Shown: one piece after another, positions 11,509 to 17,705 of the stretch
How positions within the stretch are numbered: position 1 is the stretch's first letter
How the letters are laid out: each line of letters begins with the position of its first letter
From: an uncultured Spirochaetales bacterium
GTDB taxonomy: Bacteria; Spirochaetota; Spirochaetia; Sphaerochaetales; Sphaerochaetaceae
NCBI GenBank assembly: GCA_944393005.1
Contig: CALXYO010000001.1
Span: 248,001 to 312,000, forward strand
Direction of reading: 5' to 3'
Length of the DNA: 64,000 nt
Made by a program: the position numbers and the translations under genes
Notes under the pieces: model-generated
What the model was told of the DNA's origin: nothing
The model's database searches: none
Seen by the model: only the letters and a program-made list of their open reading frames with translations

Positions 11509-11943
11509 ATGAAAGACACAGGTTTTTTCGCTGAATTCAAGAAATTCATCACCCGCGGCAACGTTCTCGACATGGCAGTCGGCGTTATCATAGGCGCTTC
11601 ATTCAATGCTATAGTTACAAGTCTCGTCAATGATATCGTGAGCCCGGTGATCGGAATCATCACGGGCGGTATTGACTTCGCATCAATGGTAATCACACTT
11701 GCGGCAGCAACTGAAACAACAGCTGCAGTGACAATCAACATCGGGGCATTCATAAATACAATAATCCAGTTCCTGCTTACCGCACTCACCCTCTTCGTCA
11801 TCGTGAAATCATTCAACAAGATGAATGAGATGAGAAAGAAGAAGGAAGAAGAGGCAGCAAAGGCTGCAGCACCTGCCGCACCGCCTGCAAAACCGGCAGA
11901 CATCGTTCTCCTTGAAGAGATCAGAGATCTTCTCAAAAAGTGA
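11509..11943 (+). CDS. mscL: Large-conductance mechanosensitive channel
   Basis: 144 residues. The N-terminal helix and TM1 (FKKFI-like EFKKFITRGNVLDMAVGVIIGASF) carry the glycines of the channel gate. TM2 (about residues 83-105) is followed by a charged, alanine/proline-rich linker and the C-terminal helix ADIVLLEEIRDLLKK. It opens under membrane tension to release solutes in osmotic downshock. The Ala/Pro linker (AAAPAAPPAKPA) is somewhat extended. It ends in a terminator at 11971. Confidence 0.97.
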   Translation: MKDTGFFAEFKKFITRGNVLDMAVGVIIGASFNAIVTSLVNDIVSPVIGIITGGIDFASMVITLAAATETTAAVTINIGAFINTIIQFLLTALTLFVIVKSFNKMNEMRKKKEEEAAKAAAPAAPPAKPADIVLLEEIRDLLKK

Positions 11944-11970: not shown

Positions 11971-11995
11971 CCTCCCCGTGGGGAGGTTTTATTTT
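11971..11995 (+). terminator. Terminator of mscL, at the end of the convergent gene
   Basis: CCTCCC/GGGAGG stem followed by TTTTATTTT. The stop codon of the convergent frameshifted gene (11989-11991) lies within its tail. Confidence 0.85.
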
Positions 11996-12790
11996 ACTTC
12001 TTCAAGCACATAAACCGGAGAACCATCAACAGGATTCATGAATGCGATTTTCATGAAAAGGGAATCACCGTCCATCCGGTATTCAAGACAGCGTTCACCC
12101 TCATCATTATAGAAAAATCTTATGCTTGAATCAGTGTCGGCTGTGAAGCCGAATGCCTTACTGCTTACGGAAAAAAAACACCTCTGATGGTGATATCCTC
12201 ATTGAATTCAGCTTCCACCTTGACGGATTCACAGGTGACCTGTTTATAAGTTCGGCACATTTCCTGTAACTTTCTGCATAATAAGAGTCATCATCCCATT
12301 CTATCCAGCTTCCTTTTTCTTCACCAGGATTGAAAATCGGGAAGAAACGGTACTCTTTTCCATCTCTCAACACATATATTTCAGGATACTGTCCATATTC
12401 AGGGTTATATGCACTTTTCACCCTCATTGTCAGTGTTTTCATTTTTCCCCTGTTGTCATCATCACTTGTGTTTACCCAACGATATTCACCGTCCCATGAA
12501 AGCGTCCTGCACTTCTGTATCGAGACATCAAGATTGTTGTTTTCACCATCCCTTGCAGCCCATGACACCTTATATTCCCTGTTCCCCTCAAGGTTTTCAA
12601 CAGTGAAGGAAAGCTGGCTGCTGTCAAGCCGGGCTATGAAGCCGTCATCCATGTAGATATCATACCAGACCACATCTTCAACCTCATCCCATTCAAGAGC
12701 CAGACTGTTTGCAAGGCTTCTGACAGAGAGAGCGGCAAATGCCGAAAAGGAAACGGCAATGATAAGCATCATGGCAGCAATTTTCTTCAT
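11989..12790 (-). pseudogene. Secreted FN3-like protein with a frameshift at an A8/T8 tract
   Basis: The first 204 or so codons encode a signal peptide (MKKIAAMMLIIAVSFSAFA), a fibronectin-III-like region (about residues 28-90, with WYDIYMDDGFIARLD) and an unknown domain. The frame then stops at 12158. With one base fewer in the T8 run (12171-12178 as A8 on the plus strand), reading continues without a stop for some 60 codons (AFGFTADTDSSIRFFYNDEG ... VYVLEEVK) to a TAA at 11989-11991, right beside the mscL terminator. That continuation has the codon use of a real gene. It could be a mutation, a sequencing error or phase variation. Confidence 0.75.
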
Positions 12791-15127: not shown

Positions 15128-16942
15128 TCAGCTTTTCTTTTCGTCACTGCCCTCTTTTTTCTTGGGATACAGGAACCTCTTGATCTTCTGTGTCGCAGTC
15201 CTCTCGAAGTCTTCCTCCTGAAGTTCCACAGAATCGATCCTGTTCTGTGAGGAAAGCTCCTTGTTCACCTCCCCACGGAGTGATGCAACATACTTCACGG
15301 CTTCCTTCTTCGCATCCTCAATGCTTATCTTCAGGCTCTTCGCCATCAGCTCAATATCTATCTTGATGAGGGCAAGGAGTCCGGTTCCCTGAGGAACGAC
15401 AAGTGATTCCTGTACGAACTGCATGTTGTTGATCACGGATTCAATCGACTCAGGATAGATGTTTTCACCTGCAGGACCGAGGATCATCGTCTTGCAGCGT
15501 CCTTTGATGTAAAGCCATCCTCTCTTATCGATGAAGCCAAGGTCCCCTGTCCTGAAATAACCATCACCCGTAAAGGCCTCAGCATTGAGCGCATCATTAT
15601 GGTAATAGCCCGGCGTTACGCTTGGCCCCTTCACTGCAATTTCGCCGACACCAGTGGAGTCGATCTCAAGCAGTTTCATGTCGACATCAGGATGGACCTT
15701 GCCGCAGGAACCGACCTTATGCTGCTTTCTCTTCGGACCGCATCCCGCCAGAAGCGGACTTGTCTCTGTAAGCCCGTAGCCAAGCGCATACGGAAAGCGG
15801 GCCCTGTAGAGGAAGTCCTCAACTTCCCTGTCAAGGGCAGAGCCTCCGATTCCGAAGAAAGCCAGCTTTCCGCCGAACGTGGACTGAAGCTTATGTCCGA
15901 TGAGACGGGCAACCAGATTCTTTGTAAGAGGATTGCGGTAGAACTTCGCAAGACTGCCTTCCCCCTTTATGACCGGAGCGACAGCGGCTTTGTAGACCTT
16001 TTCAATAAGAAGAGGAACAGTCTGTATGACATGTGGTCTTATCTTCTTGAGGGCCGGCAGGAGAATGGAGACCGCAGGCGGCTTGCCGAGGAAATGAATC
16101 TCAAAACCGCAGTTCATTGAAAGCAGCTGTCCTATCGTGAATTCATATATATGGCTTATCGGGAGAATTGAAAGAACCCTCATTCCCGGCTTGCCGACAA
16201 AGTATTCAAAACTGTCCCTGTCCGCATTCCTTATGATGTTCTTATGGGTGAGCACGACACCCTTGGATGATCCGGTGGTGCCTGATGTATAGATTATCGA
16301 GGCAATGTCATCTTCTTCCAGAGGAAGCGCGTTAAGCTCCCTCAGACTGAACTTTGTATGAGTGATGTCCACACCCGGCAGGGAGAGGAAGTTCTTGTCA
16401 TCTATCTGTCCGCGCACATCTTCAGGCAGATGGAAAAGATCCTCAAGACGGAATATCTCGTAATTGTTCTCCAGCACGAAATCCCTTACGGAATTAAACT
16501 GTCTCTGCTGTGCACATATGCCGGTACAGCCTGAATCCTTCATGGCAACTATGGCTTCCTTTCCGCTGAAGCCCGGAAGTATCGGAACGGCAATGCCTCC
16601 GATTGATGTGAGGCCAAGGTAGAACATCATCCACATCGGACTTGACTCGCCGTAGATGCATATCTTGTCGCCCTTCTTTATTCCCATGTTCAGAAGATAC
16701 TGGCTTATCGCATGGACCTTGAACCCAAGATACTGATATGAAAAACTGACCTCATCCTCTCCTCCGTATACAGTGTAGCAGAGAAGCTTGGAATAGCGGG
16801 CGCATACAGCCTCCACGAAATCACGGAATGTGTATTTCTTCACTCCGTACATCACAAGTCCGTCAGCTCTTTTTATCTTTCCGCATTCCCTGAAGGAATA
16901 TTCCTTTGCCTTGTCTGTTTTCTTTTTTTTCGCATCACCCAT
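15128..16942 (-). CDS. Long-chain fatty acid-CoA ligase (AMP-binding)
   Basis: 604 residues. Activates fatty acids as acyl-adenylates and then acyl-CoA. AMP-binding motif YTSGTTGSSKG is near residues 218-228, GYGLTETSPLLAG follows near 395, and FRTGDLGFIDKRGWLYIKGR is the core hinge region. A very basic N-terminus (DAKKKKTDKAKEY) precedes the enzyme domain. I use ATG 16942 because GGAGG stands 5 bases upstream; this overlaps the metallo-hydrolase gene by 8 bases. It is the last gene of the operon from 18028. A second ligase lies at 22857. Confidence 0.9.
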   Translation of the reverse strand: MGDAKKKKTDKAKEYSFRECGKIKRADGLVMYGVKKYTFRDFVEAVCARYSKLLCYTVYGGEDEVSFSYQYLGFKVHAISQYLLNMGIKKGDKICIYGESSPMWMMFYLGLTSIGGIAVPILPGFSGKEAIVAMKDSGCTGICAQQRQFNSVRDFVLENNYEIFRLEDLFHLPEDVRGQIDDKNFLSLPGVDITHTKFSLRELNALPLEEDDIASIIYTSGTTGSSKGVVLTHKNIIRNADRDSFEYFVGKPGMRVLSILPISHIYEFTIGQLLSMNCGFEIHFLGKPPAVSILLPALKKIRPHVIQTVPLLIEKVYKAAVAPVIKGEGSLAKFYRNPLTKNLVARLIGHKLQSTFGGKLAFFGIGGSALDREVEDFLYRARFPYALGYGLTETSPLLAGCGPKRKQHKVGSCGKVHPDVDMKLLEIDSTGVGEIAVKGPSVTPGYYHNDALNAEAFTGDGYFRTGDLGFIDKRGWLYIKGRCKTMILGPAGENIYPESIESVINNMQFVQESLVVPQGTGLLALIKIDIELMAKSLKISIEDAKKEAVKYVASLRGEVNKELSSQNRIDSVELQEEDFERTATQKIKRFLYPKKKEGSDEKKS

Positions 16943-17705
16943 AGAAACCTCCATATGTCCTGCCTCTTTCACACACAGTGAAGTTCTTTATCTCAAAATC
17001 GTCTGTGTAATTTTCCAGAACGGCATCAACAGTATTGTTGTTGTCAGAAAGATGCACGAGGAAAACGGTTTTATCCCCGGCGCCGATCTGAAAAAGGAAA
17101 TCCCTTGCCTGTCTGTTTGACAGATGTCCCCTCTCTCCGCTTATCCTGCGTTTCAGTACAAAAGGATATCTTCCACTCTCAAGCATGTCGTCATCGTAGT
17201 TGCTTTCAAGGAATACCACCCTGCTCGCCTTTGCCATCTCAAGGCTTTCCTGAGAATATATTCCCGTATCAGTCATGAGGAAAAATCTTGAATCCCCGTT
17301 TTCAATGAAATATCCTGCAGAGCCCGCACTGTCATGACTGGTCCTGAAAGGCACGGCATGGAAAGCCCCGGCAAAAAGCTCATCGCCGAAACTGAAGATG
17401 GAGATCATGTCCTCTTTCAGCCCGAGTTTTGCAAAAAGTCTCTCATCACTTTCAAAACACTGTCTGGATGCGTGGATGCACACGCCTTTGGCACGGTAAA
17501 GAACGCCCAGTCCCTTGCTGTGATCCGGATGCATGTGGGTGACAAGCACATCGGTGAGAGCGTCAAACGGGATGTCCACCTGCTCAAGCCGGCGTTTAAG
17601 GCCGGTCAGAGTGAGGCCGGCATCAACCAGAATGCAGGATTTCCCGTCATAGAATGCATAGCTGTTGCCGCAGCTTCCGGATGTGAGGACCGCATATTTT
17701 GTCAT
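16935..17705 (-). CDS. MBL-fold metallohydrolase (YycJ/WalJ-like)
   Basis: 256 residues. The metal-binding motif THMHPDH is at about residues 56-62; further ligands are likely in SHDSAG, MTDTG and HLSDNNN, the last typical of the YycJ branch (HLS-x-x-NN). YycJ-type proteins are DNA exonuclease-like hydrolases tied to cell-wall signalling in Firmicutes; the role here is not known. It is translationally coupled on both sides, 4 bases with the Spx-like gene and 8 bases with the acyl-CoA ligase. Confidence 0.88.
   Translation of the reverse strand: MTKYAVLTSGSCGNSYAFYDGKSCILVDAGLTLTGLKRRLEQVDIPFDALTDVLVTHMHPDHSKGLGVLYRAKGVCIHASRQCFESDERLFAKLGLKEDMISIFSFGDELFAGAFHAVPFRTSHDSAGSAGYFIENGDSRFFLMTDTGIYSQESLEMAKASRVVFLESNYDDDMLESGRYPFVLKRRISGERGHLSNRQARDFLFQIGAGDKTVFLVHLSDNNNTVDAVLENYTDDFEIKNFTVCERGRTYGGFYG

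Follow-up and report, generated by a model that had tools for sequence, protein, structure and literature searches.

A one-nucleotide frame offset at a T8 run in a putative secreted-protein gene convergent to mscL in a spirochaete of the family Sphaerochaetaceae

The window, which is the whole stretch of 64,000 nucleotides analysed here, carries on its minus strand a gene coding a putative secreted protein that is divided between two reading frames and that converges with mscL. The features of the locus are the following, with the basis of each assignment in brackets.

11509-11943, plus strand: mscL, the convergent neighbour (name taken from the earlier note on this DNA)
11971-11996 (approximate), no strand assigned: mscL terminator-like hairpin and T-tract, the end region common to the two convergent genes (by eye)
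11989-12198, minus strand: second open frame, coding the conserved C-terminal ~60 codons (sequence and peptide search)
12158-12160, minus strand: early stop codon of the upstream frame (sequence)
12158-12790, minus strand: upstream part of the gene, an ORF of 210 codons (ORF list, alignment of relatives, Pfam)
12171-12178, minus strand: T8 run (A8 on the plus strand), site of the frame offset (sequence, orthologue alignment)

The 210-residue product of ORF 12158-12790 has an amino terminus that resembles a signal peptide, as judged by eye, followed by a weakly Fn3-like domain (about residues 25-83) and by the start of a conserved C-terminal module, the residues from the run onward being out of frame relative to the proteins of related genomes. 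Its stop at 12158-12160 agrees with the original prediction of a signal-peptide protein whose frame stops at 12158. The plus-strand A8 at 12171-12178 is a T8 on the coding strand, a few codons ahead of the early stop and about three quarters of the way (~77%) along the intact gene, and this repeat tract is present exactly at the point of frame change. Runs of eight A or T are unremarkable in themselves: the window has two A8, two T8 and one T9. Another eight-base A/T run is found at 16923-16930, near the 5' end of a 614-codon ORF (15128-16972, minus strand) whose frame is open across it. The second frame stays open from 12198 as far as a stop codon at 11989-11991, which lies within the T-tract 3' of the mscL hairpin and bears out the prediction of about 60 further codons ending at the mscL terminator. 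The earliest ATG, GTG or TTG of this frame is the ATG at 12075, with no start codon close to the break. The broken locus has one copy only in the assembly, as found by a pattern search with a variable gap in which any run length was allowed.

The family of the window protein was searched at E <= 0.001 in 61 genomes, namely the window's own (G000) and 60 relatives. It is present at 24 places in 20 genomes, all from the window's taxonomic family, with no internal stops in the matched part; no member was found at this threshold in the 41 others. The C-terminal module is reached at 23 of the 23 places other than the window copy, 22 of which stand in the alignment of 23 members while the last (L019), outside the alignment, was read separately. 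The window copy is the sole one of the 24 that stops short of the C-terminus. Among the 23 other places there is neither a homologue ending at the position of the 12158 stop nor one that lacks the downstream peptide, and the original description of a secreted protein whose gene is interrupted at the A8 run, while codons for its C-terminus persist downstream, holds on this evidence. Family members other than the one linked to mscL are found in 12 of the 16 genomes of the genus. The window's own genome has an intact paralogue on contig 2 (L002:1303-2127, minus strand), 37% identical to the window protein and located beside an ORF that we take to be topoisomerase-like.

Three members of the genus, G012 (the nearest), G009 and G008, have intact orthologues at the same position that are, respectively, 88, 73 and 49% identical to the window gene. 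The order asnA, mscL, orthologue of the broken gene, 134-codon ORF and DJ-1-like gene is identical in the three genomes (asnA and DJ-1-like are presumed names). When the second-frame peptide was searched in the 16 genomes of the genus (E <= 0.001), it was found in four of them, the window's own, G012, G009 and G008, and two further weak places correspond to other family members. The peptide is 89, 77 and 61% identical to the C-termini of the orthologues in G012, G009 and G008, and the split is therefore not due to a chance open frame. The relatives use a single uninterrupted frame; neither the slippery site nor the split-frame organization is conserved, and the window frame is disrupted relative to intact orthologues, as is characteristic of a pseudogene.

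The similarity of the family to Fn3 proteins (PF00041) is seen both in the window ORF, at about residues 25-83, and in the family profile. The Pfam match of the window ORF has an E-value of 0.0041 and 17.7 bits, which differs from accepted Fn3 proteins in being below the gathering cut-off of 25. Fn3 matches at E <= 0.1 are found in 12 of the 23 aligned members, and the family profile matches Fn3-named chains of the PDB (best E 1e-5, profile positions 31-80). All PDB matches of the profile end by position 102, so that the C-terminal module, the other difference from Fn3 proteins, has no solved relative among them. This module has six residues that are invariant in the 23 aligned members (G101, Y103, N107, N113, G115 and P151, in orthologue positions) and a near-invariant G241 (same numbering and members), and no convincing match to a named family was obtained for it in Pfam or NCBIfam with the same 23 members. 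Chance was considered to account for the remaining hits: seven other Pfam families, each in no more than three members (the strongest being CBM_4_9 at E 0.0023 in a single member), and five NCBIfam families, each in at most two (lowest E 0.015). A structure prediction of an intact orthologue from a two-row alignment, with a mean pLDDT of 37.9, was too poor for use. The gene product is likely an exported or envelope protein in which an Fn3-like domain is followed by an additional module.

The selective regime was compared on the two sides of the break. Compared with G012, the 204 codons preceding the break have a dN/dS of 0.079 and 58 codons that follow it one of 0.076, showing no relaxation of constraint past the lesion. 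When changes were assigned to lineages with G009 as outgroup, 7 synonymous and 2 non-synonymous ones fell on the window lineage in the part after the break. In the part before it the synonymous to non-synonymous counts are 12:10 on the window lineage versus 36:7 for G012 (Fisher p = 0.017), and those of the whole gene, both parts included, 19:12 versus 39:9 (p = 0.069); these lineage counts are rough, synonymous divergence from the outgroup being high (0.8 and 1.8 before the break, 2.5 and 1.5 after it). The non-synonymous excess on the window lineage relative to the G012 lineage is located at 12179-12790 and could reflect an older relaxation of constraint. Four neighbouring genes, when pooled, have no lineage difference of this kind (47:12 versus 51:14). 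The constraint that persists in the codons after the break implies that the break would be very recent, polymorphic or not real.

A long run at the T8 site is absent from the aligned DNA of G012, G009 and G008, whose T runs there do not exceed four, and because no such run is found in these three orthologues the tract most likely originated within the lineage of the window. Long A/T runs are avoided, not favoured, in the ORFs of this stretch of contig 1: four runs of at least eight were observed versus 12.8 (sd 3.0) expected from 200 synonymous-codon shuffles, and 33 runs of at least seven versus 46.1 (sd 5.4). These figures cover A/T runs only, in the 272 ORFs of at least 100 codons found in 312 kb of the contig, a mechanical set that includes doubtful ORFs. 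A survey of such tracts reports that the A/T runs of coding genes are preferentially placed towards 5' ends and that those longer than seven are generally not over-represented there, with a spirochaete, Borrelia burgdorferi, among the exceptions for runs of eight and nine (PMC2831843).

Frame breaks and run lengths were compared across about 266 kb of contig 1 of G000 aligned to contig 1 of G012, the longer blocks being 86-93% identical. Among the G012 genes covered, 17 of 243 look broken in G000, 4 of them by a change of frame and 13 by stops only, and the reverse comparison gives 22 of 249 in G012 (7 and 15, respectively); many of the stop-only cases are probably shadow ORFs. The frame-change cases of G000 are the broken window gene and those at 253.2 kb, 161.3-163.0 kb and 212.6 kb. 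The case at 253.2 kb was rejected as a broken gene since an apparent ORF is there fused to non-coding sequence ahead of a gene open in both genomes, and so was that at 212.6 kb, where the run directly precedes a probable ribosome-binding site and start codon (by eye). The run in question, at 212595 of contig 1 and thus outside the window, is eight long in G000 versus seven in G012. At 161289-163021, also outside the window, a gene named Lon-like/AAA+ by eye has several lesions in G000 and is a single 580-codon open frame in G012. The window gene, unlike this multiply broken gene of the same contig, has a single lesion.

The aligned part of G000 has 57 A/T runs of at least seven, 34 of which lie within an ORF of either genome. 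In four of the 34 the difference in length from G012 is not a multiple of three, and all four are longer in G000, whereas sampling from the G012 side (59 runs, 37 within an ORF) gives two of 37, one of them longer in G012; choosing runs from one genome biases the comparison towards longer lengths in that genome. The four G000 runs are the window T8 and those at 212.6 kb, at 221.6 kb, in the first codons of a mechanical ORF ahead of its likely start (by eye), and at 135.2 kb, in a shadow-like ORF (by eye). The two found from the G012 side are at 212.6 kb, again, and at 128.7 kb. Only the window T8 clearly interrupts a gene among the four (by eye), which makes a gross homopolymer error in the assembly unlikely. 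The three other A/T runs that are longer than in G012 could point to errors in run length, or to mutations of it, in this assembly.

The explanation tentatively preferred, with a probability that comes close to even, is one recent one-nucleotide frame break at the T8, arisen in the window lineage in a gene whose secreted product is uncharacterised and not part of a dedicated switch. It is supported by the intact same-position orthologues of three genus members and the intact paralogue, by the equal dN/dS on both sides of the break, by the absence of the run from the three orthologues and by the single lesion; the non-synonymous excess before the break (12:10 versus 36:7) could speak against it, and so could the three other runs that are longer in G000. 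Its chief rival, a real possibility that the original prediction also named and that we rate as less probable, is a miscount of the run in the assembly consensus, the gene being intact in the organism. Homopolymers are the usual place of sequence miscounts, every relative found is intact and the downstream codons show no decay, all of which speak for a miscount. The trend to longer runs in G000 (4 of 34 off-frame, compared with 2 of 37 from the G012 side) adds slight weight to it, but only one of the four runs clearly interrupts a gene, and G000 does not show flagged frame breaks more often (4 in 243 genes) than G012 does (7 in 249).

The original prediction also proposed that the break might be phase-variable, a reading in which slipped-strand mispairing at the T8 would make expression of the full-length secreted protein alternate between on and off states and which we regard as unlikely. 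The protein is by eye an exported one, a mononucleotide run lies exactly at the frame offset, the downstream codons remain constrained and A/T runs of at least seven have been treated as possible phase-variation sites (PMC3711429). This proposal is nevertheless left unsupported by the absence of the run from the three orthologues, which indicates a tract not maintained in related genomes, by the depletion of A/T runs of at least eight in the ORFs of contig 1 and by the single copy of the locus in the assembly; furthermore, the run stands in the last quarter of the gene, whereas coding A/T runs reportedly favour 5' ends (PMC2831843). The same contrasts, together with the lack of a second allele in the assembly, separate the window gene from homopolymer contingency genes such as Listeria inlA with its poly(A) tract (PMC2831843), which it resembles in having an A/T run, an exported product and an offset at the run. 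A species-specific form of phase variation, in which substitutions built the T run within the C-terminal module and toggling keeps the downstream codons under selection, is quite improbable. Least probable is recoding, in which slippage of RNA polymerase or a ribosomal frameshift at the run would allow some full-length protein to be made. A/T runs are potentially slippery sites, and a human case is cited in which slippage at an eight-A run gives about a tenth of full-length product, but the same source reports that in many bacterial genomes A/T runs show evidence of counter-selection only once they reach nine (PMC1088944). The orthologues, moreover, lack the run and are read in a single frame, and ribosomes slipping by -1 at the run would fail to enter the second frame. 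Re-initiation of translation was also rejected, since no ATG, GTG or TTG precedes 12075 in the second frame, which leaves that frame without a start codon close to the break. The positive support for phase variation and for recoding extends to the presence of the run and no further.

Under the preferred explanation, a recent frame break, the T run would have arisen in the window's lineage and replication slippage at the T8 would be the likely cause of the offset, now carried by the sampled strain or by part of its population. We infer that the break is recent: the gene would still look constrained after it because the lesion is young or polymorphic in the population. The product would be shortened by about its last quarter, the conserved C-terminal motif with it, and would probably be non-functional. 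Such a gene resembles a spontaneous homopolymer frameshift or young pseudogene in its one-nucleotide offset at a mononucleotide run, its intact relatives and the lack of decay after the lesion; it differs in that the lesion is known from the assembly consensus alone and could be a miscount.

These observations call for caution, since a homopolymer frame break in one assembled genome is weak evidence for phase variation, even when the protein concerned is exported. Alignment of orthologues combined with selection tests before and after the break is able to reveal such a lesion as recent or unreal. The window gene belongs to a secreted spirochaete family with a conserved C-terminal module that is unnamed in Pfam and NCBIfam and that is, as far as these searches show, uncharacterised.
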